Shown: in pieces, positions 10,732 to 43,839 of the stretch
Numbering within the stretch: the stretch's first letter is position 1
Layout of the letters: each line of letters begins with the position of its first letter
DNA from: Hemileia vastatrix
Taxonomy: Eukaryota > Basidiomycota > Pucciniomycetes > Pucciniales > Zaghouaniaceae
Direction: 5' to 3'
Assembly (NCBI GenBank): GCA_030280995.1
Contig: JASXTE010000012.1
Coordinates: 14,914,001 to 14,978,000 of the forward strand
Length of the DNA stretch: 64,000 bases
The notes under the pieces: model-generated
The model's input: the letters and a program-made list of their open reading frames with translations, nothing else
What the model was told of the DNA's origin: nothing
The model's database searches: none
Program-made: the position numbers and the translations under genes

Positions 10732-11038
10732 AGGGGGTATCAATGTTCAGGGATCCGCAATCAATTTAATTGCGGAAAATAATCTGCATACCCCAATTAT
10801 CTTCCACAATTATTTTTGCTAATAATTGGGTTATTAGATACTTTACGTGTCAATGTTCACCTCTATCTGACATTTTCATCCTCAATTTTTCATAACCACA
10901 TCTTGGACAACTTTCAAGATGTGCCAGCCTCCCTACCTTGCTGCGCACTTCCATCCTGTCTATTCATTCTATCTGTTCAAAACCCCTCCCAATCTCATCT
11001 ATTTATTTCTTCTTGTTTTCATCTTCAAATATCTGAAC

Positions 11039-12387
11039 ATGCCTCGTCATCATAGATCTTCTCAAAGACAGCCTTCCCCAAGTTTTTCCTCAAATCCCAT
11101 TACTCCCTCTCTCCCCTGCTCAGCCAAGAAATCTAAGACCATTCAATTAAAAAAAGATGATCATCTCATTCTTATCAACTAGCTGAAAACTAAATCTAAC
11201 TATGATTCTTTTTTTGGTACTGAGTATGCGACTAAAATAGGACGGCCCCCAGCATCAAAAGTTAATGGCTATCTTCTAATGGCAAATGAATTACAGAATA
11301 AGACCAAGGGAAGGATTGATCTTTTGCCTAAACAGATGTCTGAACACTTCAAGCATTACCGAGCCAAATACAAGAAGGCAAAGGCTCTTTCATCTTCCAC
11401 TGGTGCTGGGGTTACCAACATCAATATAACTAAGGGCATCAAATCCATAGACAATAAACTTGAATCTTTATGTCCTTACTTTAAAAAGATGAATGCAATT
11501 TTTGGAGAGCGAGCCAATGTTAATCCTGTAAACATATTGGATGGAGAAGATCCTATCTCCAAACATGATGTTGAAACAAATCTTTTCCCATCCTCTTCCT
11601 CCACTCAAGCCTCCCCTCATTTGAATGAGACAAATCTAGATAGCTTTTCTGTAGATCTTATTGGCAATTTAACCCAAAAAAATCTAACTCAAGTCTGTTT
11701 CTTTTTTCTTTTATCTTATCAATTCTATTTTTTTATTTACTAATTTTTTTTTATTTCTTAAAAGGCTGACGAACAAACCCAGGATCCTCAATAAACTGAG
11801 TCTGAAGGTAGCAACAATGATGAGGATGAAAATATGACCTTGAAAAATAAGCGTAGGGCTTCAAGTAGTCTAAATTTCCACTCCCAAAGAAGACAAAAAA
11901 GTGATACTTCATCACAAACCCCTTTTTTGTCTATGGAACAATTTTTAGAGAAACATGATGCTGGTAAGTGATACCATACCTTTTATTACTTTACTCTGCT
12001 TTTCTTCTACTTTATGTTAATTTTTATTATCACTCTGGAAAAAGTGAAAATTGCTAAAGAGACTCTAAGCTTTGAAAAGAAGAAATACGAGCTCTCTTTA
12101 AGGAGGGATGATAGGGTACAAGATTTGGAAGAGAGGAAGTACAAGCTCTCTTTACAGAAGGATGATTGGGCCTAATATTTGGAGGAGAAGAAGTTTGAGT
12201 TAACTCTAATTATTGAAAAATCCAAAAAAGAGGAAAAAACACTCGAACATCAAAACCTATTAGAGCAGATGAAATATAAGTTTGATCATAAAGAAATTCC
12301 AAAAAGAAAGATTTCTTGATAGAATGTGTTAAATCTAATAAATCTGTTGAGGAAATTGAACGTTTAAAAAAATTGTTTGATGACTAG
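11039..12387 (+). pseudogene. SANT/Myb-like DNA-binding protein of Harbinger A, broken
   Basis: This is the second protein of Harbinger elements, which binds transposon ends and brings in the transposase. From ATG at 11039 it reads MPRHHRSSQRQPSPSFSSNP, then a trihelix/SANT-like part (LKKDDHLILI, GRPPASKVNGYLL, PKQMSEHFKHYRAKYKKA). A Ser-rich linker and a charged coiled coil with repeats of KKYELSLRRDDR type follow. Exons: 11039-11692, 11765-11963, about 12037-12387. Breaks: TAG replaces the Trp codon of the ...ILINW motif near 11180; CAATAA in exon 2; a stop in exon 3 at the ...DDWA repeat; a 1-bp frameshift near 12295; and the third acceptor is changed (CTCTGG where B has CTCTAG). It is convergent with the Tet-like gene. 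Confidence 0.75.
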
Positions 12388-12544
12388 TTTGCTTTATTTC
12401 TCTCACAATTCAACTGTTCATATTTATTTGTACATAAAATTTACAATAAGCTCCTGTATTTCATTACTCTATCAATCATTACTTGAATTTTTGAATTTTA
12501 ATGTTAAATATTCATTTTTAAATAAAATTTTCATGTCTCCTTTG

Positions 12545-12975
12545 AAAATTTGACAATCCCCCACCCCTGAATTTTTTTGAAGTAAGGGGTGGGTATCACC
12601 AAAATTCTTTCATGTCATGAATCTTGAAAGTCTTATATGAAACTTTGGCTTTACTACCCCGTGCATTTTACCGGTATCCCCAAAATTCTTACAAGTCAAA
12701 AATTTCACAAGTCTTATAAGAAATTTTGTCAATACCCCCCCTGGATTTTATTGAAGTAAGGGACAGGTATCATTAAAAATTTTTCACCAAAATATTTACA
12801 AGTCAAAAATTCTATATGTTACATTTGAAAATTTGGCAATACCCCCCCTACATTTTATTGAAGCAAGGGGTGGGTATCACCAAAATTTTTACAAGTCTTC
12901 AATTTTGAATGTCAGATTTGAAAATTTGGCAATACCCCCCCCTACATTTAATTGAAGTAAGGGGTGGAAGTCATC
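12545..12975. repeat. Tandem repeat of about 95-bp units (element A)
   Basis: Four to five units, each with a C-run (CCCCCCCTACATTTTATTGA), then AAGTAAGGGGTGGGTATCAC, CAAAATTTTTACAAGTC and a GAAAATTTGGCAATA join. The C-run and the following G-run can pair within one unit. The array sits between the convergent 3' ends of the SANT and Tet-like genes and is kept at the same place in B (about five units), C (two) and D (about two, inverted). Confidence 0.8.
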
Positions 12976-13267
12976 TAAATTTATTATAATTACATAAATT
13001 ATTAAATAAATATCAAATATATATCAATTTCCCTAGTTTAAAGTAATGACAATTCCTCAAGCCAAAATGAAGATCAAATCTAGAAACAAAAGTTTGGGAC
13101 TTTCCACAGGTATAGGCTAGAGGAAACCCATGAAACAAATAAATTTTATCATGATTACCTGTTATACAAACAAAGGTCATTGGCTCATCACTTTACTTGA
13201 GCAAATTGATATATAAAAAATATTTATTAAAAACTTATGAAAAAATATAAAATTTGTGATGACAACT

Positions 13268-13896
13268 CTAATCCCCATACTTTTTGGATCTAGATAAAGT
13301 TTTTTTAAATCGAATAACTTTACCTTCTTTCTTTACCTTATTGATTCTTTGAATCAACTTATTACTGATTTGAAATGAGCAACCAAAATGTGTGAAATCT
13401 TGACAGGATTCCAAACCATGAGGAGCTTTGGTCGCTTGATGATTATCCTGAAAAGAATTCCAAATAGTTTCGATGATACCATTTTCCAAACCAAAATCAA
13501 TGATGCACCGGTGGTCTGGAAAATATAAACCATGTCCTTTGATTTTAGCTGGAGATGGTATTGGGTGGCCAGTTATTGGATTGATATATGAGAATATTCC
13601 AAAAGTAAGAAAATTGGCATCATTCCTATCAATATGAATCCTATTGTCAAATCCAGAATGAGTGATAATAACATTAGAAAATAAAAGATATTCGTGGCTG
13701 ATATCTTCCCATTTGGAGTCACACCAATTTGGTATTCCAACCTTGGTTTCAAGTTCATGATTTTTTTCAAATGCTTTATTACAGAGCTTTTTGAGTCAAA
13801 GAGCAAGAAAAGAGTTAAAGGAAGGTAGAGTGTCCCATAAGCAAAAATCTTCATCTTTTTGAGATTTAGTGATATTCTTGAGCAATGAATATATGC
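13268..13896 (-). pseudogene. Tet/JBP-like 2OG-Fe(II) oxygenase, element A copy
   Basis: The family oxidises 5-methylcytosine or other bases in DNA using Fe(II) and 2-oxoglutarate. Reading the minus strand after the splice acceptor at 13897, the frame shows ITKSQKDEDFCLWDTL, GIPNWCDSKWEDISHEYLLF, the iron-binding HxD in RIHIDRNDANFLTFG, KIKGHGLYFPDHRCIIDFG, and the distal His in NSFQDNHQATKAP followed by HFGCSFQIS. One stop interrupts it: TGA where D has CGA (Arg), near 13796, a CpG-type change. The N-terminal half seen in element C is missing; upstream lies a non-coding leader with a duplicated 145-bp block. Assignment is by pattern recognition. Confidence 0.75.
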
Positions 13897-13899
13897 CTA

Positions 13900-14860
13900 G
13901 ATAACAATCATATAAGAGTTTCAGAATCCTTATCCTCTAAATATGCAATACTAAAATGTGAAATAAGACAAGTGAAATTTGGAAAAAAGGCTCAACTTCA
14001 AAGGTCAAAATCTCAGCAACCACTGAACCTAATTCAAACCTGTTTGTGGAAAATGAGAGATATGCTTTAGTAGAATCTTCATTTAAAGGAAATAAGATTT
14101 AAATAAACCTAACCCTAATTTGTTACATAAAAAAATGAAATAAAAATTTAAAATTGAGAAAAAAAAGGCTCAACTTTAACGGTCAATATCTCAGCAACCA
14201 CTGAATCAAATTCAAATCTGTTTATAGGAAATGAAAGGTGGCCTTCAGAAAAATCTTCAGTTAAAAGAACATTAGATTTGAATAGACCTAACCCTAATTC
14301 CAAGTCTGATTTTCAAAATTTTACAAAAACTTGAAAAGTGGTAATGAAGATGAGATCAAAAGGAGTTTAATAAGTTCACTGTTATCCAGATAAGAGTCAT
14401 ACATATATTTAAGTATGAGGTTTTAATAAAAGGAATGAGATATAATATAGGCATGAAAAAAAGGAGATGAAACTTACCTTCATTGAAAAGTAGGAAAAAT
14501 AGAGTGAGAAATATTGATGTTGTAATTGTGGGGAAATTGAATATGGAGTAAGTGAAATGCATAAAGAATGTGCAATGTATGTGTTTCAATGAAATAGAGC
14601 CAAAAAAAAGTGAAATAGGGGAAAAGGGGGATAATGACCATGCCAAGGAGTGATGAAGAGTAGGGTGATGGAGCTAAAAAAGAAAGTAAAGAGGGAGAGA
14701 AAAAAAAGGTTAATTATACCATTGAAATCCAAAATAACCCCTTACAAAAAAAATTTGATAAAAAAAATAAAATTAACAGAAAAAAAACAAAAAAAATTAT
14801 AATTAGTAATCAAAAAATCAAAAAAATAGAGTAAAATGACTTACCTGGAGAGATGAGACG
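13900..14860 (-). other. Leader region of the Tet-like gene in element A
   Basis: Non-coding sequence between the oxygenase exon and the transposase gene. It holds two imperfect copies of a block of about 145 bp (minus strand: ACTGAAGAT...TTTCATTTCC...AACAG.TTTGAATT..., with CAGTGGTTGCTGAGAT and TTAGGGTTAGGTTTATT), and candidate donor sites GTAAGT near 14480 and 14840. The layout suggests spliced 5' untranslated exons; that is inference. Confidence 0.45.
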
Positions 14861-15132
14861 ACAAAATAAATGAAACCAAATTGTTTGAGGGATGTTGGAG
14901 GAGAATAGGAAAAGGATATGACGGATAAATGAAAAAATGAAACAGCGAAAAATTATTCAATTTTAGAATATATGCAATGTCGTGTTGAGCTGGTGAAAGA
15001 AAACCAATGAGCCATCCAAAAAAGAGATATTTACCATAAATTCCAAAAAAAATGAATATGCAACAAACAAAAATACCAAGCCAAGTGAATAAGTATACAA
15101 AGTGAAAATTTGGAGAGTATGAAAACAAAAAA

Positions 15133-16445
15133 CTAAAAGGGTTGTGTGCCAAAATGGTGGAGGGTGATTGGCATAATGACAGAGCATATGCCAGTTGAAT
15201 GAATATTTTGAGATTCAAGGGATGGGAGAGCAGGCACTGGTTCAGGATCCTCTTCTTCATGAAAATAATTCCACTCATCCTTTAAATAAGCTAGGATATT
15301 GTGGAGTATAACGCAAGTCATGATCCAATGATTCAAACTTTTGATTTCCAATTTTTTTTGAAATTGGATTCTGAGCTCCTGAAGACTAGAAAATTTTCCC
15401 CTTAAAATACCTATAGCATGTTCAATCTGTACTCTTGATTGGGCAAGGTGATAATTAAAGGCAGTTTTGGGGTCAATTTCTAAACTTGCACCACGGAAAT
15501 CAGGTATAATTTACTTTCCATTTGCATATGATGAGTCTGAAAGGAGGTACTGAGATTTGTCAAAGTATGAGTCAGGGGTTTGAAAAATACTAATTCTTTG
15601 GAAGACGGAAGAGTCATGACATTAGCCAGGGCAGCCACTATGAAAAGCAATAAATTTTTTTTTGACATTACATACAAGTTGAGGGGCAATAGAGTATCTA
15701 GAAAGAAGATAAAAAGTTAGTTTATGAAGGATGAGAAATTGGAGAAGATTTTGAAGAAACCTTTAATGAAATCAAAATAATGGTTCCCATCATGAGCAGG
15801 CTTTTGACTCAAAGGTATGGTTGTGCCATCAACAAATGCTACACAGCCAGGGAAACCTTCAGCTTTCATTACTTGAGAGGATTCAAGTCGCTGTTCTGGA
15901 GTTGGCCAAGCAAGTGTTTGAGGCTTGAGGGGAAGGATAGAAATCATACAGCACTTTGTGTATAATATCATAGTACCATATCCTATGTTAAAGAGATTAT
16001 CCAAACTTCTTACAGCAGAACCATTTTCATTTGAGTCAAAGAGACATAGTGCAACAGCAAGTTGGATGGCAGGATTACTCTGTTTGTTATGGGAATTGTT
16101 ATGAAAGATAGGATGATCGGAAAAGAGTTGATAAATTTTGAAGAAAGAATTGGGAGAAGTTCTAAAAAGTTGGGTGAAGTTTAAATGAGGAATGTTGAGA
16201 ATGGAGGCCAGATCATATTGGGGATCATGATAAAGATTTGGCCCCCTGGTGATGATGTAACACTTTTTGGAAAGAAAACACATATAAGCTAAAGCATTTT
16301 CCAAATCAGAGTCAGATTTATAGTAAAGAACTAAAAGTAAAGTAATAGCCTTCATTGTTGAGTGAAGTAGCTTCTTAGTAGAATGGTGTTTCATTGTTGC
16401 CGGTGGAAGGGTTATGTGATGAGGGAAGTGGGAATTCACCACCAA
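15133..16445 (-). pseudogene. Harbinger DDE transposase (DDE_Tnp_4), element A, broken
   Basis: The catalytic protein that cuts and joins transposon ends. Exon 1 (16445-15761) starts MVVNSHFPHHITLPPATMKH and contains the N-terminal helical part (TSPNSFFKIYQLFSDHPIFH) and the first Asp in VAFVDGTTIPLSQKPAHDGN. A 63-bp intron (15698-15760) follows. Exon 2 has the second Asp in YLLSDSSYA and the Glu in RVQIEHAIGIL, ending HHFGTQPF. Two stops interrupt exon 2 (TAA in the ...GCPG-CHDSS motif and after ...YANGK). The three catalytic residues are still readable, so inactivation looks recent. Confidence 0.82.
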
Positions 16446-16777
16446 ATGTGCAGTTGGGGTGTGTAGATAGAAAAAAAACTTAAGTGTTTGCCACCAAAAT
16501 TAAGTAGCATAGAGTGAGGAAAGACTTAAGGATGGCATCAGCAATTATGAGTCATGTGACTTTCTTGCAAATCCATCATGGATGAGATGAGTTTGCGATC
16601 AAGAATTAGGAATGGAAATTGGGGTATAAGAGGTGGGATAATGCATTATTTTGGATTCCTTATCCACTAGCCCCGGGGCTAGTGGATAAAATTCTTCCGC
16701 AATTAATAATGTCTGACACCAGAAAAAAAAATTCCTGCTCCCTAATTGCCAATCCCTGAACATCTATACCCCCTATT

Positions 16778-16843
16778 ACTTTACTTATTTATAAAATATT
16801 TATTATTCAATAAAATATTTTATTGTAACTACATAAAATACAT
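16778..16843 (-). mobile_element. Short LTR remnant between Harbinger A and B
   Basis: A 66-bp AT-rich piece between the right duplication of A and the left duplication of B. It loosely continues the LTR interrupted at 10731 (TTTTATTGTAACTACATAAA against TAATTTTTTGTAATTACACA). Too short for more. Confidence 0.4.
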
Positions 16844-17164
16844 AATAGGGGGTATCAATATTCAGGGATCCTCAATTAAATTAATTGTGGAAAATAATCT
16901 GCATACCCCAATTATCTTCCACAATTATTTTTGCTAATAATTGGATTATTAGACACTTTACATGTCAATGTTCACCTCTTATCTGACATTTTTTTACTCA
17001 ATTTTTCATAACCACATCTTGGACAACTTTCTGTCATAACCACATCTTGACCTACCTTCTGCCATAACCACATCTTCAACTAATCTCTGGATATGCCTTC
17101 TATCTTGCTGCATACTCACATTCTCATCCCATCCTGTGCATTATATCCACTCAGAACCTCTCAC

Positions 17165-17265
17165 CATCTCATCTGCTTGTTTCTGCTCCTTTTCATCTCT
17201 CTATCTCATATGCTTGTTTCTGCTCCTTTTCATCTAGCTATCTCATCTGCTTGTACTGCTTATTT
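17165..17265 (+). repeat. Short local repeat upstream of the SANT gene in B
   Basis: Three successive copies of a unit of about 35 bp containing ATCTCAT(A/C)TGCTTGTTTCTGCTCCTTTTCATCT, the last degenerate. It lies in the 5' leader of the SANT-like gene and is absent from A and C. Confidence 0.6.
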
Positions 17266-17287
17266 TTATCTTCATTTATATTTTGAC

Positions 17288-18636
17288 ATGCCTTGTCATC
17301 CTAGATCTTCTCAAACGCAGCCATCACCCAGTTTTTCTTCAAATCCCACTACTCCCTCTTTCCCCTGCTCAGCTAAGAAATCTATGACCGTTCAATTAAA
17401 AAAATGATCATCTCATTCTTATCAACTGGCTGAAAACTAAATCTAACTATGATTCTTGTTTTGGTACTGAGTATGCAACTAAAATAGGATGGCCCCCAGC
17501 ATCAAAAGTTAATGGCTATCTTCTAATGTCAAATGAATTACGGAATACGACCAAGTGAAGGATTGATCTTTTTCCTAAACAGATGTCTGAATGCTTCAAG
17601 CATTACCAAGCCAAATACAAGAAGGCCAAGGCTCTTTCATCTTCCACTGGTTTTGAGGTTACCAACAACAATATCACTAAGGGCATCAAATCCATAGACA
17701 ACAAACTTGAATCTTTATGTCCTTACTTTAAAGAGATGGATGCAATTTTTGGAGATTGAGCCAATGTTAATCCTGTAAACATGTTGGATGGAGAAGATCC
17801 TATCTCAAAACATGATGTTGAGGCAAATCTTTTCCCATCCTCTTCCTCCACTCAAGCCTCTCCTCATTTGAATGAGACCAATCTAGATAGCTTTTCTGTA
17901 GATCTTATTGGTAATTTAACCCAACCAAATCTAACTCAGGTCTGCTTCTTTTTTCTTTTATCTTATCAATTCTATTTTTTTATTTACTTATCTTTTTCTT
18001 ATTTCTTAAAAGGCTGACAAACAAACCCAGGATCCTCAATCAACTGAGTCTGAAGGTAGTGAAAATTATGAGGAGGAAAATATGACCTTGATAAAGAAGC
18101 ATAGGGCTTCAAGTAGTCTAAATTTCCACTCCCAAAGAAGACCAAAATATGATACTTCATCAGAAACCCCTTTTTTGTCTATGGAACAATTTTTAGAGAA
18201 ACATGATGCTGGTAAGTATTACCATACCTCTTATTACTTTACTCTTCATTTCATCTACTTTATGTTAATTTTTATTATAACTCTAGAACATGTGAAAATC
18301 ACTATAGAAACTCTAAGCTTTGAAATGAAGAAATACAAGCTCTCTTTAAGGAGGGATGACAGGCTACAAGATTTGGAAGAGAGGAAGTACAAGCTCTCTT
18401 TATGGAAGGGTGATTGGGCCTAAGATTTGGAGGAGAAGAAGTTTGAGTTAACTCTAAGTATTGAAAAATTAAAAAGAGAGGAGAAATCACTCGAGCATCA
18501 AAAACATTTAGAGCAGATGAAATATGAGTTTGATCATAAGGAAAATTCCAAAAAGAAAGATTTCTTGATAGAATGTGTTAAAGCTAATAAATCTGTTGAG
18601 GAAATTGAATGTTTAAAGAAATTCTTTGATGACTAG
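17288..18636 (+). pseudogene. SANT/Myb-like protein of Harbinger B, broken
   Basis: Equivalent of the element A gene: start MPCHPRSSQTQPSPSFSSNP, then SANT-like block, Ser-rich linker and coiled coil ending in NKSVEEIECLKKFFDD. Breaks: one A missing in the A-run at about 17400 shifts the frame; GTGAAGG gives a stop near 17554; TTGAG gives a stop near 17758; TAAG in exon 3 at 18421. The exon 2/3 donor (GGTAAG) and acceptor (CTCTAG) are intact, which helps define the splicing of the family. The upstream region differs from A by a local repeat of CATCTGCTTGTTTCTGCTCC type (17165-17265). Confidence 0.72.
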
Positions 18637-18784
18637 TTTGTTTTATTTCTCTCACACTTCAACTGTTCATATTTATTTGTACATAAAATTTAAACTTATT
18701 TCCTGTATTTCATTACTCTATCAATCATTACTTGAATTTTTATATTTTAATGTTAAATATTCTTTTTTTCAAATAAAATTTTCA

Positions 18785-19230
18785 TGTCTCCTTTGAAAAT
18801 TTGACAATCCCCCACCCCTAAATTTTTTTGAAGTAAGGGGTGGGTATCACCAAAATTATTTTATGTCATGAATCTTGAAAGTCTTATATGAAGCTTTGGC
18901 TTTACTACAGCCTGAATTTTACGTTATCCCCAGAATTCGTACATGTCAAAAATTTTACAAGTCTTATAAGAAATTTTGGCAAAACTTCCAACGGATTTTA
19001 TTGAAGTAAGGGATGGGTATCACCAAAAAATTTTCACCAAAATATTTACAAGTCAAAAAAATTCTATTTCTGTTTTAAAAAATTGGCAATACTCTCCCCT
19101 GCATTTAGTTGAAGCAAGGGGTGGGTATCACCAAAATTTTTCTAAGTCATCAATTTCACATGTCAGATTTGAAAATTTGGCAATACCCCCTCCCCTGCAT
19201 TTTATTGAATTAAGGGGTGGAAGTCATCTA
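18785..19230. repeat. Tandem repeat of about 95-bp units (element B)
   Basis: About five units equivalent to the element A array, again between the 3' ends of the SANT-like and Tet-like genes. Core pieces: CCCCTGCATTTAGTTGAAGC, AAGGGGTGGGTATCACCAAA. Confidence 0.8.
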
Positions 19231-19562
19231 AATTTAATATAATTACATAAATTATTAAATAAATATCCAATATATATCAATTTCCCTAGTTTAAAGTAAT
19301 GACAATTCCTCAAGCCAAAATGCAGATCAAATCTAGAAACAAAAGTTTAGGACTTTCCACAGGTATAGGCTAGAGGAACCCTATGAAACAAATAAATGTT
19401 ATCATGATTACCTGTTATACAAACAAAGGTCATTGGCTCATCACTTTACTTGAGAAAATTGATATATAAAAAATATTTATTAAAAATTTATGAAAAAATA
19501 TAAATTTTTTGATGAAAACTTTGATCCCCATACTTTTTGGATCTAGATAATATTTTTTTAAA

Positions 19563-20149
19563 TCAATTAACTTTACCTTCTTTCTTTACCTTGTTGATTC
19601 TTTGAATAAACTTATGAATGATTTGAAATAAGCAACCAAAATGTGTGAAATCTTGACAGGATTCCAAACCAGGAGGAGCTTTGGTAGTTTGATGATTATC
19701 CTTAGAAGAATTCCAAATAATTTTGATGATCCAATTTCCCAAACCAAAATCAATGATGGAACGGTGGTCTGGAAAATATAAACCATGTCCTTTAATTTTA
19801 GCTGGAGATGGCATTGGTTGGCCAGTTATTGAATTGATATATGAGAATATACCAAAAGTTAGAAAATTGGTGTCATTCCTATTGATATGAATCCTATTGT
19901 GAAATCCAGAATGAGCGATAATAAAATTAGAAAATAAAAGATATTTGTGGGTGATATCTTCCCATTCAGAGTCACACCAATTTGGTATTCCAACTTTGGT
20001 TGCAAGTTCATGATTTTTTTCAAATTCTTTATTACAGAGCTTTTTGAGTCGAAGAGCAAGAAAAGAGTTAAAGGAAAGTAGAGTGTCCCATAAGAAAAAA
20101 TCTTCATCTTTTTGAGCTTTAGTAATATTCCTGAGCAATGAATATATGC
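19563..20149 (-). pseudogene. Tet/JBP-like oxygenase, element B copy, HxD altered
   Basis: The frame is open from the acceptor at 20150 to the TGA stop at about 19563, reading YSLLRNITKAQKDEDFFLWD, GIPNWCDSEWEDITHKYLLF, SGFHNRIHINRNDTNFLTFG, KGHGLYFPDHRSIIDFG and NSSKDNHQTTKAPPGLES. The iron-binding HxD has become H-I-N, which should abolish iron binding in this family, although the distal His in DNHQTT remains. The N-terminal half found in element C is absent and no ATG opens the exon, so a spliced upstream start would be needed. The TGA after ...KKEGKVN shortens the C-terminus relative to D. Confidence 0.72.
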
Positions 20150-21110
20150 CTAGATAATAATCATATAAGAGTTTTAGAATCCTTATCCTCTAAATATGCA
20201 ATATAAAAATGTGAAATAAGACAAGTGAAATTTGGAAAAAAGGCTCAACTTCAAAGGTCAAAATCTCAGCAACCACTGAACCTAATTCAAACCTGTTTAT
20301 GGGAAGTGAGAGATATGCTTTAGTAAAATCTTCAGTTAAAGGTCATATGATTTAAATAAACCTAACTCTAATTTGTTACATAAAAAAATGAAATAAAAAT
20401 TTAAATTGGGAAAATAAAGGCTCAACTTTAACAGTCAATATCTGAGCAACCACTGAATCAAATTCAAATCTGTTTGTAGGAAATGAAAGATTGCCTTCAG
20501 GAGAATCTTCAGTTAAAAGAACATTAGATTTGAATAAACCTAACCCTAATTCCAAGTCTGATTTTTAAAATTTTAAAAAAACTTGAAAAGTGGTAATGAA
20601 GATGAGATCAAAAGGAGTTTAATAAGCTCACTGTTATCCAGATAAGAGTCATACATATATTTAAGTATGAAGTTTTCATAAAAAGAATGAGATATCATAC
20701 AGGCATGTAAAAAAGGAGATGAAACTTACCTTTATTGAAAAGTAGGAAAAATAGAGTGAGAAAGATTGATGTTGGAATTGTGGGGAAATTGAATATGGAG
20801 TAAGTGAAATGCATAAAGAATGTGCAATGTATGTGTTTCAATGAATTAGAGACAAAAAAAGTGAAATAGGGGAAAGGGGGGATAATGACCATGCCAAGGA
20901 GGGATGAAGAGTAGGGTGATGGAGCTAAAAAAGAAAGTAAAGAGGGAGAGAAAAAAAAAGGTTAATTATACCATTGTAATCCAAAATAACCACTTACAAA
21001 AAAAATTTAGATAAAAAAAATAAAATAAACAGAAAAAAAACAAAAAAAATTATATTTAGTAATCAAAAAATCAAAAAAAAAGAATAAAATGACTTACCTG
21101 GAGAGATGAG
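20150..21110 (-). other. Leader region of the Tet-like gene in element B
   Basis: Same structure as in A: two imperfect 145-bp blocks, short runs related to TTAGGGTTAGG, and GTAAGT donors near 20725 and 21095. There is no conserved open frame with coding character. Confidence 0.45.
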
Positions 21111-21387
21111 ATGATAAAATAAATAAAACAAAATTGTTTGAGGGATATTGGAGGAGAATAGGAAAAGGATATGAGGGATGAATCAAAAAAATGAAACAGT
21201 GAAAAATTATGCAATTTTAGAAAATATGTGACGTCATGTTGAGCTGGTGAAAGAAAATCAATGAGCCATCCAAAAAAGAGATATTCACCATAAATTCCAA
21301 AAAAAATGAATATTCAACAAACAAAAATACCAAGCCAAGTGAATAAAGTATACAAAGTGGAAATTTGGAGAGTATGAAATAAAAAAA

Positions 21388-22701
21388 TTAATAGGGTTGT
21401 GTGCCAAAATGGTGGAAGGTGATTGGCATAATGACAGAGAATATGCCAGTTGAATGAATATTTTGTGATTCAAGGGATGGGAGAGCAGGAACTGGTTCAG
21501 GATCCACTTCTTCATAAAGATCATTCCACTCATCCTTTAAATCAGCTTGGATATTGTGGAGTATAGCGCAAGTCATGATCCAATGATTCACACTTTTGAT
21601 CTCCAATTTTTTTTGAAATTGGATTCTGAGCTCCTGAAGACTAGAAAATCGTCCCTTTAAAATACCTATAGCATGTTCAATCTGTACTCTTGATTGGGCA
21701 AGGTGATAATTAAAGGGAGTTTTGGGGTCACTTTCTAAACTTGCACAACAGAAAGCAGGTATAAGGTACTTTCCACTTGCATATGATGAGTCTGCAAGGA
21801 GGTACTGAGATTTGTCAAAGTATGAGTCAGGGGTTTGAAAAATACTCATTCTTTGGAAGACGGAAGAGTCATGACATGAGCCAGGGAAGCCACTCTGAAA
21901 AGCAATAAATTTTTTATTGACATTGCATACAAGTTGAGCGACAATAGAGTATCTAGAAAGAAGATAAAAAGTTAGTTTATGAAGGATGAGAAATTGGAGA
22001 AGATTTTGAAGAAACCTTTTTTTGCCATCAAAATAATGGTTTCCATCATGAGCAGGCTTTTGACTCAAAGGTATAGTTGTGCCATCAACAAATCTTACAC
22101 AGCCAGGGAAACCTTAAGCTTGCATTACTTGAGAGGATTAAATTCATTGTTCTGGAGTTGGCCAAGCAAGTGCTTGAGGCTTGAGGGAAAGGATAGAAAT
22201 CATACAGCACTTGGTGTATAATATCAGGGTACTGTATCCTATGTTAAAGAGATTATCCAAACGTCTTACAGCAGCACCGTTTCCATTTGAGCCAAAGCAA
22301 CATAGTGCAACAACAAGTTGGATGGCAGGATTATGCTGTTTGTTATGGGAATTTTTATGAAAGATAGGATGATTGGAGATGAGTTGATAAATTTTGAAGA
22401 AAGAATTGGGAGAAGTTCTAAAAAGTTGGGTGAAGTTTAAATGAGGAATGTTGAGAATGGACTCCAGATCATATCGGGGATCATGATAAATATTTGGCCC
22501 CCTGGTGATGATGTAACACTTTTTGGAAAGAAAACACATATAAGCTAAAGCATCTTCCAAATAAGAGTCAGATTTATAGTAAAGAACTAAAAGTAAAGTA
22601 ATAGCCTTCATTGTTGAGTGAAGTAGCTTCCTAGTAGAGAGGTGTTTCATTGTTGCCGGTGGAAGGGTTATGTGATTAGGGAAGTGGGAATTCACCGCCA
22701 A
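21388..22701 (-). pseudogene. Harbinger DDE transposase, element B, broken
   Basis: Exon 1 (22701-22016) starts MAVNSHFPNHITLPPATMKH; the intron is 21953-22015; exon 2 runs to the stop at 21388. Catalytic signatures: FVDGTTIPLSQKPAHDGNHY (Asp 1), YLLADSSYASGKY (Asp 2), RVQIEHAIGILKGRF (Glu). Exon 2 is fully open. Exon 1 has three stops in a short stretch just before the first Asp (22075-22150: TGA and TAA after ...PTPEQ, and TAA before GFPGCV). Apart from these it is the best-preserved transposase here. Confidence 0.82.
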
Positions 22702-23033
22702 ATGTGCAGTTGGGGTGTGTAGATAGAAAAAAAACTTAAGTGTTTGCCACCAAAATTAAGTTGCATAGAGTGAGGAAAGACTTAAGGATGGCATCAACAA
22801 TTATGAGTCATGTGACTTTCTTGCAAATCCATCATGGATGAGATGAGTTTGGGATCAGTAATTATGAATGAAAATTGGGGTATAATAGGCGGGATAATGC
22901 ATTATTGTGGATTCCTTATCCACTAGCCCTGGGGCTAGTGGATAAGAATCTTCTGCAATTAATAATGTCTGATCCCGGAAAAAACAATTCCTGATCCCTA
23001 ATTGTGGATCCCTGAACATTGATACCCCCTAAT

Positions 23034-23232
23034 AGGGGGTATCAAAGTTAGAAATCCTCCATTTCAAAATACCTCTTTTTTCCACCAAATCAAACATGAT
23101 TATTTTTAAGGCATGCCATCTTGTGCCCACAAAACATCTTTTTACTGAGAATTAATGTCATGCTTGTGACTTTCTTTTTGTGCTGTGAAATACCTTTTAA
23201 ATAATTTCAAATCTCTAACTTTCATACCCCCT
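23034..23232 (+). mobile_element. 200-bp MITE, copy 1
   Basis: Begins AGGGGGTATCAAAGTTAGAA and ends TCTAACTTTCATACCCCCT, sharing the first ten bases with the Harbinger ends but differing beyond. Right flank is ATT; the left flank is AAT, shared with element B's right duplication, so its own left flank may have been lost or altered. Family X LTR sequence resumes immediately to its right. No coding capacity. Confidence 0.75.
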
Positions 23233-23440
23233 ATTATCTTTATATAAGCTATAACTATATTATATTTCTCTATTTTCCACCACTAGCATGCATAAAAATC
23301 CAAGTATTGTGAGTTTATATTGAGAATAACTTTTTTATTAGTCTTCCCATGAGGTTTAATCACTAAATAATTTATCAATAATTAGTAGGAGCATTAATAT
23401 TTACTATAAAATCATACTTAGATACCAGCACACACTGAAA
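23233..23440 (-). mobile_element. Family X LTR (second copy), other end
   Basis: Reverse complement of the first 205 bp or so of the solo LTR at 1220, including CCACCACTAGCATGCAT, AATACTTGG-type and AGGTTTAATCACTAAAT stretches. The last 28 bases align without gaps to the LTR edge. It ends at 23440, followed by GATTA, which matches GATTC at 9484-9488 as the target duplication. Confidence 0.68.
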
Positions 23441-23637
23441 GATTATTTTTGACAGCTGCATCCAGTTTTTCAGGGCTGGGCTGATTTTCGCCCATTTCCT
23501 CCCATTTTCCCACCCAAATAATCTCCTCCATCCTTCTTCATCTAAGTCTCAGATACCTGGAATTGGTATACAACAGATAAGTCTTCCCTATCATCTTCAA
23601 TGCCTACTCTCATTTTTTCTGAGTCAACATTTTTATT
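23441..23637 (+). repeat. Dispersed repeat R, right fragment
   Basis: Continues the R fragment at 9412-9488 when compared with the intact copy at 32690-32990 (inverse). Shared stretches include TCATCTTCAATGCCTACTCT, AGTCTTCCCTATCATCTTCA and TTCCCACCCAAAT. No open frame; family unknown. Confidence 0.65.
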
Positions 23638-23837
23638 AGGGGGTATCAAAGTTAGAAATTATTAATTATTAAAAATGTATTTCACAACACAAAAAGAAAG
23701 CCACAAACTTGAAATTATTGCTCAGTAAAAAGGTGGTTTTGGGGCACAATATTCCATATATTAAAAAATAAACATAGTTGAATTGGTGGAAAAAAGAGGT
23801 ATTTCAAAATGGAAGATTTGTAACTTTGATACCCCCT
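23638..23837 (-). mobile_element. 200-bp MITE, copy 2 (inverted relative to copy 1)
   Basis: Ends AGGGGGTATCAAAGTTAGAA and TTGTAACTTTGATACCCCCT, with ATT on both sides (23635-23637 and 23838-23840). Internal sequence is the reverse complement of copy 1 (for example ATTTCACAACACAAAAAGAA against CTTTTTGTGCTGTGAAAT). Non-coding. Confidence 0.82.
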
Positions 23838-23899
23838 ATTAAGTAGATATGTTTGATCTTCATAATGTGTTTAATTTCCCGCTTCCACCTTGCAACCAA

Positions 23900-24905
23900 C
23901 TTTTGTTGATGTACTGGTTGATAATTTTTTAATTCACCTCAACAAAGTCAAAGGCAAGAATATTTTCTAAATTCTTCTAAAAATCTACCTCATTCTTCAG
24001 TCATTGGTAACAATCAACTTGGCTCTCTTTCACGAAATTCAACTCAACATCAAGAGTTTTTTCAACCAGATTTTGGAGTTAATTCAGAACTTAGAGCTCC
24101 CTCAGTTCTTACCTCAACTTCTGAAAATTCAAGCTTTGTTTCAACTCCACACTCCTTCAAGCCACTTCATTCATTGGTGAAGATTCACCTTTAATATATA
24201 CTATGGGTTGAATTTTTTACAAACCAAGCTCAAGGCAGCTCACAAAAGAAAAAAAACAGAAGGTCTTACACTAATGCAAACTGCAAAAATCACTTCACCC
24301 AAATCAAAATTTAATTTTGATTGGGAGATCTTACATTTTAATCTCATAGACTTCAAGGAAAAAGCTACTACAACTATTTATAAAACTGAGAAAGAAAAAT
24401 TGGCAAACTTGAATAGGAAACATTTAAATTATGGCAACATTGTTTGGAATGTAAAAATTCTACATGGTTGTGACTTTTCAGCTTCACAAAAAGCAGATTT
24501 GGACTATCAAGAAAATTTTGAAAAATTTCTTGAAGTTGCCAATGGAATGAGTGAAGGTAGAAAGATTGTGCGTTGCATAACACATGCTGATCCCAAAGTT
24601 GAGGCAAATGTAAGTTTCTTGATTTCTCTCTTTAATTTATGTTTGTATTGAGCATTTGTTTTTTTATTAGACATCAAGTATGCTAGATCAGCTGAAAATT
24701 GAGGTGTAGCACCTGAAGAAACATCAAGTGGGGTAATCTCAGCTGTCCAACATTTCCACTTGGTCAACACTATACTTTTATCAAATAAAGCTAGCCCATA
24801 TCTTTGCCTCTCAAAAAAAGTAATTGTTTTTGTCAATAACACCAATCTAAATCAGTATTTCCACCTAGACTATGATCTTGCTGATAAATGGGCCTGTGCA
24901 ATCAT
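23900..24905 (+). pseudogene. Unrecognised gene remnant with an intron
   Basis: An open frame at 24208-24651 has coding character (EKLANLNRKHLNYGNIVWNV, LHGCDFSASQKADLDYQENF, RKIVRCITHADPKVEAN). It meets a GTAAGT donor at 24611 and a TTATTAG acceptor near 24670. The next piece (SSMLDQLKIE, then VNTILLSNKASPYLCLSKKV and YFHLDYDLADKWACAI) is interrupted by a stop and a frameshift. Upstream (23930-24190) is a Ser/Asn/Gln-rich stretch in the same direction, separated by stops. I do not recognise the family; the style is that of lineage-specific repeated fungal genes. It lies between MITE copy 2 and element C, which cuts it off at 24943. Confidence 0.5.
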
Positions 24906-25245
24906 ATTTTTTTCTTCTCTTATTTTCCTAATCAACATAATAAGGGGGTATCAATGCTGACGGATCTGCAATTAAATTTATTGTGGATAAAAATCATTAT
25001 ACCCCAATTATCATCTGCAACTATTTTTGCTAATAATTCTGTTATTGGACCTTTTATGTGTCAATGTTCACCTCTATCTGACATTTTTATCCTGAATTTT
25101 TCATAACCACATCTTGGACAACTTTCTGGATGTTCCAGCCTACCTAACTTTCTGTGAACTCCCATCCTGTCTATTCATTTCTGTTCAAAATCCCTCCCCA
25201 TCTCATCTGTTTTTTTCTTCTCCTTTCATCTTCAAATATCTCAAC

Positions 25246-26602
25246 ATTCCCAATCATCATAGATCCTCTCAAAGGCAGCCTTCCCCCACTTGTTCTTCAA
25301 ATCCCATTACTCCCTCTTTCCCCTTCACAGCTGAGAAATCAAAGACTGTTCAACTAAAAAAAGATGATCATCTCATACTTATTGACTGGCTAAAAATAAA
25401 AACTAATTATGATTATTGTTTTGGTACTGAGAATGGAAATAAGGTAGGAAGGCCCCCTGCATCAAAAGTCAATGGCTATCTTCTAACGGCCAATAAATTA
25501 TGAAATAAGAAAAAGGAAAAGATTAATCTTTTTCTTAAACAGATGTCTGAACTTTTCAAGCATTACCAAGCCAAATACAAGAAGACAAAGACTCTGTCAT
25601 TTTCTACTGGCTTTGGTATTACCATCATTGATATCAGTAAGGGAATAAAATCCAAAGATGATAAACTTGAATCTCTATGTCCATACTTATAAGAGATGGA
25701 TGCTATTTTTGGAGAGCGAGCTGATGTTAGTCCTTTCAACATGTTGGATGGTGAAGATTCTATCTCTGAAAATGTTGCTGAAAGAAATATTTTCCCATCC
25801 TCTTCCTCCACTCAAGCCTCCTCTGTTCTAAATACAACAAATCTAGATAGCTTTTCAATAGATCCTTATGGTGATATAAACCAACGTGATCCCACTCCAG
25901 CAAGTTTTTATTTCTTGTCTAGTTGTTTTATTTTTTTATTTTTAAAAAGGCAAATGAACAAACCCAGGATCCGCAAGAAAGTGAGTCTGAAGCTAGCATC
26001 AATGATGAAGAGGAAAATGTTACCTCAGAAAAAAGAAAAGACCATCAACTACTTTGAATTTCAACAGTCATAGAAAGCAAAACAGAGATAGTTTTTTGCA
26101 AACCCCTTTTTCTTCCATTCATTATTTTCTGGAGAAACGTGAATCTGGTAAGTGATAGCATACCTCTTAATAATTAAGCGAGCCTTTATTTTCTTTTTTT
26201 GATATTCCTTTTCACTCTAGGTAAAGTTGAAGTTGCAGCAGATACTCGAAACTTTAAAAAGAAACAATATGAGCTCTCTTTACAAAGGGATGATAGGGCA
26301 CAAGACCTGGAGGAGAAGAAATTCAAGCTTTCTTTACAGAGGGATGAGAGGGCACATGACTTGGAGGAGAAGAAATTTGAGCTTCTTTAAAGAGGGATGA
26401 GAGGGAATATGATTTGGAGGAGAAGAAATCTGAGATAAAGAAAGAGGAGGAGGATCATGAGTACAATTTCCCATTGGATCAAATGAAACTCAAGTATCAA
26501 CTTGAAGAAGGTTCAAAAAAGAAAAATTTCTTGAGAGATTGTTTTAAAGCTAATAAATCTATTGAGGAAATTGGATTCTTAATGAACATTTTTGATAACT
26601 AG
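25246..26602 (+). pseudogene. SANT/Myb-like protein of Harbinger C, broken
   Basis: The start codon position reads ATT (ACATTCCCAATCATCATAG) instead of ATG. The frame continues HHRSSQRQPSPTCSSNPITP, KKDDHLILIDWLKIKTNYDY and GRPPASKVNGYLL, with the Trp lost in A still present, until TGA near 25501. The linker frame 25696-25910 is open. The exon 3 coiled coil (from about 26222) has three near-identical units of K(K/Q)(Y/F)(E/K)LSLQRD(D/E)RA(Q/H)DLEE, more than in A or B, and ends NKSIEEIGFLMNIFDN after an internal stop. Confidence 0.7.
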
Positions 26603-26910
26603 TTTTTTTATTTCTTTACAAAGTTTTATTGAAAGAATGCATTAAAGCTAATAATCAATCCTTGGAACACACTCCTCACTGATATTTAAAAAATTTTATT
26701 GCAACATTTAAGATTATTTGTTTGTTTGGTTAAATTAATTTTGTTTTATTTATTTTTGGTGATAATTTCATATGCACTGACTTTTTAAAGGTCTTGATTC
26801 TAGATGATTTTTTTTAGCAAAAATTTGAAAAACTCATACATTTTTTCTTCTTTACATTCAAATCATTAAATTTACTCTTCTAAATACAGCTAAGTCAACA
26901 AAACTTCATG
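26603..26910. other. 3' flank of the SANT gene in element C
   Basis: AT-rich transposon sequence with no repeat units yet and no open frame of note. Confidence 0.35.
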
Positions 26911-26914
26911 TCTG

Positions 26915-27080
26915 TTTTAAAAATTTAGCAATACCCTCCCCTGCATTTTATTGAAGCAAGGGGTGGGTATCACCAAAATTTTTCCAAGTCATCAATTTCA
27001 CATGTCAGATTTGAGAATTTGGCAATACCCTCCCCTGTATTTTATTGAAGTAAGGGGTTAAAATCACCAAAATTTAATAT
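26915..27080. repeat. Tandem repeat, two units (element C)
   Basis: Two units of the 95-bp repeat (ATACCCTCCCCTGCATTTTA, TTGAAGCAAGGGGTGGGTAT) at the same convergent position as in A and B. Copy number is lower here. Confidence 0.75.
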
Positions 27081-27439
27081 AATTACATAAATTAATATAT
27101 AAAAAACTAATGTATATCAATACCCCTAGTCTTAAAGTAATGAAAATTCATCTTTCCAAAATGTGGACCAAGTCTAGAAAATAAGTTTGGGACTTTCCAA
27201 AGGTATAAGCAAGATGAACCCCATAAAACAATTTAATGTTATCATGATTACTGTTTATAAAATACAGGGTTGTTGGCACATTATTTTATTTTAAGAATTT
27301 GATATACAAGAGTTATTTATAAAAAATTTATGAAAAAATAAAAAATATTTGATGACTCTACTAATCCCCATATTTTTTGATCTACATAAAGTTTTTTTAC
27401 ATCTGTTAAACTTACCCTCTTTTTTTACTTGTTTATTTG

Positions 27440-28395
27440 GTGGATTAAGTTTTGACTGATTTGAAAAGAACAGCCCAAATGTGTGAACTCTTGAAAAGAC
27501 TCAAAGCCAGGTGGAGCTTTGGTCATTTGGTGATGATCCTGAGAAGAGTTCCAAATTGTTTCAATCACACCATTTCCCAACCAAAATCAATCATGCACCA
27601 ATGGTCTGGAAAATATAAGCCATGTCCTTTGATTTTAGCTGGAGATAGTATTGGTTGACCAGTTATCAGATTGATGTATGAGAAAATTCAAAAAGTAAGA
27701 TAAATGGCATGATTCCTATTGATGTGAATATTATTATGGAATCCTGAATGAGTAATAATAATGTTTGAAAATAAAAGATATTGATTGCTAACTTCTTCCC
27801 ATTTGGAGTCTCACCAATTTGGTATTCCAGCTTTGGAAGCAAGTTGATGATTCTTTTCAAAAGCTTTATTACAGAGTTTACTGAGGAAAATAACAATAAA
27901 AGTATTGAAAGAAGGTAAGGTGTCCCACAAGCAAAAATCATCATCTTTTTCAGCTTAAGATAAATTTTTAAGTAAAAAATAGATGCCTATGGAAATAAAA
28001 TTAGTGACATGATTTTAAGAAAAAAACATATATTATCAGACATACCAAGAGAATAGCTTTTATCAAATACTTGTCTCCAACCAAATCCAATCATAATACC
28101 ACCCAAAAAATTTGTATTCCTTATTGGTAAGTGAACCAAAGCCATTTGATATAGTGTTATTATGAGATTAGATAGTTGATTAAAGGTTTCATCTTTTGAA
28201 CTATTAAAAGAATGATTTTCATAAAAAAATTGAGGTTTAAAAGAATTCCTGAAAACTGCTTTAATTTCATCCTCTCCTGATTTGGTTAAATACATTAAAT
28301 CTTCTGGTAAATTTTTTGGATAAGAGTTTTTTTGATCCACTCTAGTTTTATAGTACTTGGTATTTGATATATGGCCAAATTAACAATTAAAATAA
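27440..28395 (-). pseudogene. Tet/JBP-like 2OG-Fe(II) oxygenase with N-terminal half, element C
   Basis: Two exons on the minus strand. Exon 1 (about 28395-28046) reads DQKNSYPKNLPEDLMYLTKS, FNSSKDETFNQLSNLIITLY and NFLGGIMIGFGWRQVFDKSY; this resembles the region before the catalytic core in the rust Tet-like family. Intron 27987-28045 (59 bp, GTATGT...CATAG) joins to exon 2, which begins IYFLLKNL and aligns with the start of the single exon seen in A, B and D. Exon 2 is damaged: stops, a frameshift after ...IDFGWEMV, and H-I-N replacing HxD (NNIHINRNHAIY). No confident start codon was seen. It shows what the complete gene looked like. Confidence 0.68.
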
Positions 28396-28439
28396 ATTTT
28401 CTTTTTTCATTTTCTTTTTTTCTGCTGACTTTGATCATC

Positions 28440-28800
28440 ATTATTTTTTTTTTGATATTTTGGATGATGAATGAAATGAAGTTGAACTTGAGAATGATGA
28501 TAAAGAAGATAAAGAGGATAATGAGGGGGGAGGGGAGGAAGCGGTGAAGGGGATAGGGGGATGAGGGGGGGGAAAGGTGTGAGGAGGCCTAAAGGTGGTA
28601 TAAGAGGCCTAAAGAGAGCAAAAAAAGAAGAACTAAAGGAGATAAAAGGGGGGTAAAGGTGGGGAAAAGGGAGAAATGAGGGGTGAGGAAGAGAATAAGG
28701 GGATAAAGGGGGATTGAGGCTGTCAAGAAGGGGGAAAAGGAGAAAAAAAGAGCAAGAAAAGAGAGAAAAGAGGGAGAGAAAAAAACAGAATTAGTCTAAC
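28440..28800 (+). repeat. Polypurine tract in element C
   Basis: About 350 bp of nearly uninterrupted A/G on the + strand (GATAATGAGGGGGGAGGGGA, AGGGGGATGAGGGGGGGGAA and similar). It lies upstream of the Tet-like gene. It could form triplex or R-loop structures; low-complexity expansion is the simple explanation. Confidence 0.8.
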
Positions 28801-29165
28801 CTTGAAAAAAAATAAGTGAAGCACTTACAAAAAAAAAGCAAAAAAAATAATTCATGATTAACAAATCAAAAATCAACAAAAATGAAAAAAATGACTTACC
28901 TGGTGAGATGAGTTAAAAAAAATGCAACCAAAATATTTGAGGGATGTTTGAGCAGATGAGGAGAAGGATATGAGTGAAGAATGAAAAAAAGAAACACTAA
29001 AAAAATATGTGATTTCATGTTGAGCTGGTGAAAGAAAAACAATGAGCCATCCAAAAAAGAGATATTCACCATAAATTCAAAAAAAAAGAATATGCAACAA
29101 ACAAAAATACCAAGACAAAGAATAAAGTATACAAAGTGGAAATTTTGAGCATATGGAAAAAAAAA

Positions 29166-30539
29166 TTAAAAGGGTTGTATGCCAAAATGGTGGAGGGTGA
29201 TTGGCATAATGACAGAGCATATGCCAGTTGAATGAATATTTTGTGATTCAAGGGATGGGAGAGCAGGCAGTGGTTCAGGATACTCTTCTTCATGCAAATC
29301 ATTCCACTCATCCTTTAAATCAGCTAGGATATTGTGGAGTATAAAGCAAGTCATGATCCAATGATTCACACTTTTGATCTCCAATTTTTTTTGAAATTGG
29401 ACTCTGAGCTCCTGAAGACTAGAAAATTGTCCCTTTAAAATCCCAATAGCATGCTCAATCTGTACTCTTTATTGGGCAAGGTGATAATTAAAGGTGGTTT
29501 TGGAGTCATTCTCTAAGTTGGCACCACAGAAAGCAGGTACAATATACTTTCCACTTGCATATGCTGAGTCTGCAAGGAGGTACTGAGATTTGTCAAAGTA
29601 TGAGTCAGGACTTTGAGAAATCCTCATTCTTTGGAAGATGTAAGAGTCATGACATGATCCACGGCAGCCACTATGAAAAGTAATAAAAATTTTATTGATA
29701 TCACAGACAAGTTGAATGGAAATAGAGTATCTACAAAGAAGATAAAAAGTTAGTTTATTATAGATGTGAAATTGGAGAACATTTTTAATAAACCTTTTTT
29801 TGCAATCAAAATAATGGTTCCCATCATGAGCAGGCTTTTGACTCAAAGGTATAGCTGTACCATCAACAAAACCTACACATCCAGGGAAACCTTCAGATTG
29901 CATTACTTGAGAGGATTCAAGTTGCTTTTCTGGAGTTGGCCAAGAAAGTGTTTGAGACTTGAGAGAAAGGATAGCAATAATGCAGCACTTGGTGTATAAT
30001 ATGACAGTACCATATCCTATGGTAAAGAGATTATCTAAACGTCTTACAGTAGCATCATTTACATTTGAACCAAAGTAATATAGCTCCACAGAAAGTTGAA
30101 AGGAAGGATCACACTGTTTGTTATGGGAAATATTATGGAAGATAGGATTATTGGAGATGAGTTGAGAAATTTTGAAAAAAGAATCAGGACAAGTTTAAAA
30201 TAGTTGAGTGAGCTTTAGTTGAGGAATGTTGAGAATGGAGTGGAGATCATATCTGGAATTGTGATAAAGATTTGGCCCCCTTGGGATGATGTAATGCTTT
30301 TTGGAAAGATAAGACATATAAGCTAAAGTGTCTTCTAAACCAGATTCAGAATCAGAGTCAGCAGCTAAAACTAAAGTGATATCATTCATAGCTGTGTGAA
30401 GTTTCTTCTTAGTAGAGAGGTGCTTCATTTTTTTTGGTAGAAGGTTTAGGTGATGAGTGGGAAGTGGAAAGTGGTAATTTGCCACCAAATGAGCAGGTGG
30501 GGTGTGTAGATAGAAAAAAATGTTATGTATTTGCCACAA
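29166..30539 (-). pseudogene. Harbinger DDE transposase, element C, broken
   Basis: Exon 1 begins near 30539 or at the inner MKHLSTKKKLHTAMNDITLV start and ends at 29794. The intron is 29731-29793 and exon 2 ends at 29166. Catalytic signatures: GFVDGTAIPLSQKPAHDGNH, YLLADSAYASGKYIV and VQIEHAIGILKG. Breaks: TTTAAAATAG gives a stop/frameshift near 30195, and a TAA lies after ...FNYHLAQ near 29469. Many amino-acid differences from A and B show an older split. Confidence 0.8.
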
Positions 30540-30885
30540 AAATTAAGTATCATAGAGTGAAGAGACACATAAGGATGAGAAAAAATGTTATGTGTTTGCC
30601 ACCAAAATTTAGTATCATAAAGTGAGGAAAGACTTAAGGATGGAATCAGCAAATATAAGTCATGTGACTTTCTTAAAATTCCATCATTGATGTGATGAGT
30701 TTGGGATTAAGAATTAAGAACAGAAATTGGGATATAAGAGGTAAGATAATGCATTATTGTGGATTCCTTATCCACTTGCCCCAGGGCGAGTGGATAAGAA
30801 TCTTCCACAATTGATAATTTCTGATCCTGGTAAAAAAAATTCCTGATCCCTAATTGTGGATCCCTGAACATTTACACCCCCTAAT

Positions 30886-40390: not shown

Positions 40391-41015
40391 AATAGGGGGT
40401 GTCAGTTCTGGCAAATCCGCACTTAACTTAAGTGTGGATTTCAAACCAAATCAGCACTTAAATTTTGCAAAAAAGTCACTTATTTCAAAAATGGGTGTCA
40501 GTTCTGACCTCAAATCAGCACATTTTTCATGATTTTTTTTTCAAAACCACATGTTGGCCACATCATCCCTTTCTTTCCCATACCATTTTGTACTCTCCAA
40601 ATGTCCTCTTTGTGTACTTCATTCACTCGGGTTGGTATTTTGGTTTGTTGCATATTCATTTTTTTTTAGAATTTATGGTGAAATATTTTTTTTTGGATGG
40701 CTCATTTGTTTTCTTTCACCAGCTCAACATGAAATTGCATATTTTCTGAAATCTCATATTTTGTCAGTGATTTTTTTTTCATTCATCCCTCATATCCTTT
40801 TCCTATTCTCCTCCAACATCCCTCAAACAATTTGGTTTCATTCATTTTGTCATCTCTTCTCTCCAGGTAAGTCACTTTATTCTTTTTTTTGATTTTTTGA
40901 TTACTAATTATAATTTTTTTGTCTTTTTCTGTTAATTTTATTTTTTTTATCTAAATTTTTTTTGTAAGTGGTTATTTTGGATTTCAATGGTATAATTAAC
41001 CTTTTTTCTCTCCCT

Positions 41016-43800: not shown

Positions 43801-43839
43801 TTTTTGACTTGTAAATATTTTGGTGAAAATTTTTGACGA

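Follow-up and report, generated by a model that had tools for sequence, protein, structure and literature searches.

Harbinger-type transposons of Hemileia vastatrix that carry a Tet-like oxygenase gene, and a multiplied chimeric relative

Elements and genes in the window

A stretch of 64,000 nucleotides from Hemileia vastatrix (contig JASXTE010000012.1, positions 14,914,001 to 14,978,000), referred to here as the window, contains four Harbinger-type elements, A to D, with a Tet-like oxygenase gene (TET), as found by profile search and alignment. Genome scans covered the assembly of 747,610,610 bases in 791 contigs. Element A (10732-16774; 6,043 bp) is flanked on both sides by ATT, a 3-bp duplication, and element B (16847-23030; 6,184 bp) on both sides by AAT. 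Element C (24943-30882; 5,940 bp) lies between ATA and AAT, which do not match. Element D (40394-44762), flanked by AAT on both sides, is a chimeric, non-autonomous Harbinger of a sister family with the end AGGGGGTGTCAGTTCTGG. The initial annotation had described A, B and C as three full-length copies with 3-bp duplications; a clean duplication is present in A, B and also D, and is missing from C. A and B are 90% identical from end to end, and C is more diverged, with 73-81% identity to A across two alignable parts.

The A-type terminal sequence AGGGGGTATC, with at most one mismatch, occurs at 16 sites in the window against 2.04 expected, and its exact form at 9,552 + 9,425 sites in the genome against 483 + 476 for a reversed control. 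CpG dinucleotides within terminal repeats are seen directly as TCCGCA motifs at the ends of A and D. The 3-bp flanks agree in 20 of 23 elements, the exceptions being C, L014 and one miniature inverted-repeat transposable element (MITE). Another way of cutting the ends, as GGGGG..CCCCC, leaves TA on the flanks; the base beyond the TA matches too often for a bare TA target duplication, which is therefore disfavoured. Where AWT stands on both flanks, the middle base is identical on the two sides in 20 of 22 elements (p 1.2e-4). At 23034-23837 lie two MITEs, each about 200 bp long and with AGGGGGTATC-type ends.

The catalytic exon of TET lies on the minus strand at 13268-13896 in A, with HxD intact and one internal stop, and at 19563-20189 in B, where it is open and HxD reads HxN. 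C holds a two-exon form at approximately 27420-28460 on the minus strand, with the N-terminal exon at about 27999-28460 and with stops and a frameshift. In D the exon is on the plus strand at 42687-43448, open over 253 amino acids and with HIDRND intact. The N-terminal exon is missing from A, B and D and present in C. The Pfam profile PF20515, named "Tet-like 2OG-Fe(II) oxygenase" (2OG, 2-oxoglutarate), matched D at 2e-30, B at 4.1e-24 and A at 1.5e-20 (13268-13795). In C the profile search matched PF20515 in neither of two short frames, and C aligns with D over the same exon at 81%. The Tet-like oxygenase of the initial annotation is thus borne out, by profile in three elements and by alignment in the fourth, and a lack of similarity to such profiles is not what was found. 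Its HIDRNDANF signature is unbroken in A and D alone, since B and C read HIN. A search for homologues of TET returned one, unnamed protein. The arginine that binds 2OG in animal TET appears, as judged by eye, to be a histidine here. A small upstream open frame was considered as an alternative first exon for the truncated TETs and rejected: it has no excess of changes at third positions and, checked by hand, does not join the catalytic exon.

The DDE transposase gene is on the minus strand in all four elements: at 15133-16499 in A (two stops and one frame-shifting indel), at 21388-22755 in B (three stops), at 29166-30194 in C (interrupted) and, as an N-terminal fragment, at 43748-44400 in D. 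Profile PF13359 matched B at 5.7e-25 (21388-22113) and C at 6.1e-12 (29469-30194). The Harbinger vehicle of the initial annotation is borne out. The D fragment has 62-65% nucleotide identity to A, B and C, and is about 70% identical to the A-type over the stretch compared in the transposase tree. D also holds an A-family TET cassette (40586-43834, plus strand; 89-93% identical to A and B) that is inverted relative to this fragment. The shared place and orientation of TET first described for A, B and C therefore holds for these three, and the copy reported in D is present and runs opposite to D's own transposase. At about 41017-41902 the D cassette is broken by an inserted sequence, some 890 bp long, that bears terminal inverted repeats (CACCACGCAATAT...); at the level of translation, the filler of the TET-less element L014 seems to contain a related motif.

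The third gene of A, with SANT-like and coiled-coil parts, occupies 11039-12390 (limits approximate) on the plus strand and is interrupted. Its assignment as SANT-like is weak: the PF13837 match in A has a value of 0.064, and the frames searched in B and C had none. Open copies elsewhere match weakly (L013 0.00097, L014 0.0055, L056 0.0014), below the Pfam cut-off. A homologue search for the third protein gave a single protein, P0122, in which PF13837 was not matched. Two structure predictions, the third-protein model among them, had mean pLDDT values of 33.9 and 46.2, too poor to use.

Related elements across the genome

A sample free of gene-based choice was drawn from the 100 AGGGGGTATC sites at the head of the listing, which all lie on contig C2 (35,997,290 bases), by pairing neighbouring opposite ends blind to the genes between them. 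Within 10 kb this gave 19 pairs, of which ten span 194-450 bp (194-200 bp and 419-450 bp) and nine span at least 5.4 kb. All nine long pairs were fetched: seven are genuine elements, and six of the seven carry TET in the same place. L011, in which no genes were found, and L016, whose left end does not match the terminal repeat although TET and DDE lie inside, were not counted as elements; nor were L018, a tenth stretch, and the single-ended L019 to L021, of which L019 and L021 hold TET and L020 just a C-terminal piece of it. In the end-paired elements DDE and TET share a strand, with TET downstream, and the SANT-like gene is opposite. With A, B and C, these six elements confirm the repeated co-mobilisation that was originally proposed. 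L012, L013 and L014 are 93-99% identical where shared. L012 has a complete TET (PF20515 at 9.2e-31); in L013 the N-terminal exon is replaced, and the switch lies no more than about 15 bp from where the catalytic exon starts. The HxD motif (HIDRND) and the downstream H motif (NHQTT) accompany the PF20515 matches, as expected of a TET/JBP-like dioxygenase. A genome search with the TET protein gave at least 150 matches at 84% identity or more (the best 150 of 19,762 first-look candidates), and a PF20515 search at least 150 matches, all above the cut-off (the best 150 of 10,849); both counts are lower bounds that say little about the true totals.

The sister family is numerous as well. The D terminal repeat AGGGGGTGTCAGTTCTGG, with at most one mismatch, has 5,143 + 5,186 sites in the genome and none in the control. 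The 100 sister-end sites at the head of the listing form 35 pairs with two size clusters, one of 16 pairs at 3.3-3.8 kb and one of 5 pairs at 6.3-6.8 kb. The single 6.36-kb copy that was fetched, L056, has its own DDE gene, a two-exon TET with an open frame of 368 amino acids and a SANT-like gene, in the A-type gene order. TET is thus found inside the transposon ends, copied with them, and in the same place in two diverged families.

The 3.5-kb D-like elements are built differently. In these an A-family segment is inverted beside the stump of a sister transposase, and it extends from about 20 bp past the transposase stop, through TET, up to a repeat array. In the TET tree the D-type copies form one group (support 0.77) beside the A-type copies, with about 93% identity over the catalytic exon, and A- and D-type together are split with support 1.0 from C, L015 and the sister-family kind of TET. 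The transposase tree places D-type copies far from A-type ones (about 70% identity, support 1.0). Among the 30 best TET loci, 22 are D-type chimeras with common junctions as far as the loci reach; D's own TET was the query, so chimeras are over-represented in this count. The identical junctions point to one recombination event whose product was then multiplied with D ends. Taken together, the alignments and trees indicate that the TET gene was swapped between two Harbinger families, giving a multiplied chimera. In an end-based sample, 11 of the 16 sister pairs of 3.3-3.8 kb were examined: seven have TET, three have a DDE C-terminus instead and one has a TET fragment alone. Four of the five remaining pairs span a listed TET match, one of which was listed without stops. 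In one D-type chimera, L028, parts of the N-terminal TET exon are present as well, which hints that elements have exchanged sequence on other occasions too.

The cassette occurs in two families and its orientation to the transposase differs between them, which might be taken to mean that the Tet gene is a separate nested transposon that has inserted into Harbinger elements repeatedly. Such an origin is very improbable, and was rejected, given the constant position and orientation in A, B, C and the six further elements and the identical junctions of the 22 D-type chimeras, as far as the loci reach.

Neighbouring features of the window

Direct repeats of about 1.18 kb at 37007-38181 and 53088-54263 are 97% identical and resemble the long terminal repeats (LTRs) of a 17-kb retrotransposon. 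Element D lies between them, as do frames with matches to integrase and aspartyl-protease domains; D would accordingly have inserted into that retrotransposon. Directly adjoining these repeats is another LTR-like pair, at 54263-54788 and 61970-62486, with 92% identity. An open frame at 5870-6592 matches the Ku70/Ku80 beta-barrel domain (PF02735, 1e-10) and is likely a host gene beside the transposon cluster.

Relation to known transposons

Harbinger families with TET have been described in five Puccinia species and in Austropuccinia psidii; the name PHISTA was given to the Puccinia lineage, which has families with and without TET (Kojima 2025, PMC12730594). The vehicle itself is therefore not new, as it is already published for six other rust species, and the claim that a Harbinger carrier would be a different vehicle holds against KDZ-type transposons. 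Hemileia is not named in the main text of that paper, and no open-access paper was found that joins Hemileia with TET, dioxygenase and transposon. Among the open-access papers listed, Kojima's alone mentions, in its title or the start of its abstract, Harbinger among the transposons with a TET/JBP gene.

The PHISTA and A. psidii elements resemble those of Hemileia in the DDE transposase, the rust TET gene, the presence of a third protein and the proposed escape from silencing (Kojima 2025, PMC12730594). The named transposases nearest to that of L014 are from P. coronata (52%), P. striiformis (51%) and A. psidii (47%), and common descent with PHISTA is likely from these comparisons. Two features may set the Hemileia elements apart from that description: their target duplication is read as 3-bp AAT/ATT, whereas PHISTA-type elements are described with TA duplications, and their third protein has a weak Myb match, whereas that of PHISTA is described as without Myb/SANT (PMC12730594). 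Nuwa-type Harbinger elements (Kojima after Han et al., PMC12730594) share with those of Hemileia the 3-bp duplication and a transposase accompanied by a Myb/SANT-like protein, which is a possible one here; the Hemileia elements add the TET gene.

Iyer 2014 is said to have tied fungal TET/JBP expansions to KDZ-type transposons, and the KDZ transposase belongs to a different family from that of Harbinger. Like the Hemileia elements, the KDZ groups Dileera, Kyakuja and Zisupton are fungal DNA transposons with TET/JBP genes, and Dileera occurs in rusts; the described Dileera-type element differs in its 8-bp duplication (PMC12730594). A movement of TET between families is also on record there as the transfer from PHISTA to ESTA-1_PCor, at about 80% identity and with no signature at the ends as described (PMC12730594). 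The Hemileia swap differs in its identity of about 93% over the catalytic exon, its inversion, its two Harbinger families, its multiplied non-autonomous chimera and its fixed junctions. What is new comprises the Hemileia families, the 3-bp AAT/ATT duplication, the possible Myb/SANT-like third protein and the 3.5-kb chimera.

Function and maintenance of the TET gene

The explanation proposed here is a Harbinger lineage with three genes whose TET would oxidise 5-methylcytosine in trans on silenced copies, freeing their expression or their ends, and it is held to be somewhat probable. Of the three genes, those for the DDE transposase and the Tet-like Fe(II)/2OG oxygenase lie on one strand, the oxygenase gene downstream, and the third, whose product is possibly Myb/SANT-like, lies on the other. 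The TET product would act on methylated CpG sites, some of them in the terminal repeats, so that transposase genes of silenced copies may be expressed or ends become bindable. Action in trans would allow single copies to lose TET, and the cassette to recombine into non-autonomous elements that spread with or without a working TET of their own. Kojima likewise proposes that TET counters the silencing of transposons (PMC12730594). A role in escape from silencing is plausible.

In eight copies, C-to-T changes were found at 146 of 815 CpG sites against 288 of 10,673 other C, and this strong excess is in line with the CG methylation of rust transposons, which is described for young transposons of stem rust (PMC8444563) and for transposons of myrtle rust (PMC12774611). 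The observed/expected ratio of CpG is 0.08-0.41 in 20 elements and 0.10-0.20 in three other window stretches with LTR-type repeats, and 0.68 around the host Ku gene. Hypermutation specific to TCG, which Kojima cites for Puccinia and Microbotryum (PMC12730594), was considered and rejected, as the changes are not specific (TCG 35/159, CCG 49/262, GCG 34/185, ACG 28/209).

Selection on TET was assessed by codon position at non-CpG sites where the rarer base was common to at least two elements, with L015 left out. TET changes in ten elements number 15 of 259 at positions 1 and 2 against 19 of 128 at position 3 (p 0.007), and those of DDE in nine elements, eight of them also in the TET set, 23 of 532 against 28 of 254 (p 0.0006). 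In another TET set, made up of 16 A-type copies from elements that partly overlap the first, the counts were 14/272 against 12/134, and in 22 D-type copies they were 9/264 against 6/132, a weak contrast; the table of these 38 copies leaves out winC, L015, L019, L020 and L052-L055. The coiled-coil exon of the third gene also follows codon position (17/99, 23/113 and 41/105 at positions 1, 2 and 3). The counts suggest that TET is constrained about as much as the transposase.

A body of evidence weighs against this explanation, and much of it bears on whether TET is instead a passenger, captured once, riding with the transposase and now decaying, that the transposon does not need. A, B and C each have broken genes. 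L010, L013 and L017 lack the N-terminal TET exon as A, B and D do, so that truncated copies are found repeatedly, and the TETs of these six elements may be inactive. L014 has unrelated filler in place of TET and still has open DDE and SANT-like frames (PF13359 at 5.8e-26), with mismatched flanks AAT/ATT; an intact member without the gene, which was to tell against the original proposal, was thus found once, beside six TET carriers among the seven genuine end-paired elements. TET is dead in most of the multiplied D-type copies: stops occur in 20 of 22, with 15 of the 22 having one at a common residue, and in the end-based sample six of the seven TET-bearing copies have stops, five of the seven at one residue. 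Mean pairwise ratios of nonsynonymous to synonymous divergence (dN/dS; NG86, CpG included) are 0.39 for all D-type copies, 0.39 for A-type copies, 0.35 for nine stop-free copies and 0.41 for 18 D-type copies of which the majority hold a stop; the mostly dead D-type group is thus not above the A-type, and this crude measure fails to separate living from dead copies. The SANT-like exon has no codon-position pattern (21/146, 13/166 and 19/142 at positions 1, 2 and 3). CpG decay gives no sign of protection in cis among the eight copies: it is lowest in the TET-less L014 (6/105), and among TET carriers it is 11/106 in L013, 13/106 in L012, 8/86 in L017 and 19/104 in L010. DNA methyltransferase PF00145 was matched in the assembly only on four contigs of 44-159 kb (L068-L071). 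On three of them the stretch read has a GC content of 45-49%, and these may derive from a contaminating organism among the spores; a host methyltransferase is thus not established. Searches by sequence in the PDB gave no matching solved structure.

A passenger is nonetheless doubtful as an account of the TET gene. Its codon-position bias resembles that of the transposase, two diverged families keep one gene order, eight of 16 A-type copies are stop-free over the exon and six of these eight keep HxD, and TETs of the L056 kind have open frames of 393 and 398 amino acids. As dN/dS is blind to living and dead copies, the case for selection on TET is moderate, and the lack of protection in cis could be explained by a trans-acting enzyme or by the age of the copies.

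The oxygenase may also make another base modification or use another substrate, as CMD1 or JBP do, and mark transposon DNA in this way. Room for another activity of PU-type TET is left by Kojima (PMC12730594), and the PDB result agrees with it; this reading is quite unlikely, as PF20515 is named Tet-like and the transposons of related rusts bear CpG methylation (PMC8444563, PMC12774611). A bolder version of the explanation proposed here, that TET is a trans-acting eraser opening methylated CpG-containing ends for the whole family, including non-autonomous copies and the chimera, is regarded as unlikely.

Significance

The chimera with its swapped cassette is the freshest part of these findings. 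The Hemileia elements also extend transposon-encoded TET in Harbinger carriers to a third rust genus and to large numbers, with thousands of terminal repeats and at least 150 TET matches. Near-identical sister elements with TET, with truncated TET and without TET occur in one genome and make a role in undoing silencing testable. If ends are opened for the whole family, erasure would be a common good that is open to cheating by transposons, and such cheating would explain why full-length elements keep TET and many of the amplified copies have a dead one or none. Provided that the enzyme acts in trans, these transposons would provide a clear eukaryotic case of a selfish element with its own epigenetic eraser, together with its cheats.

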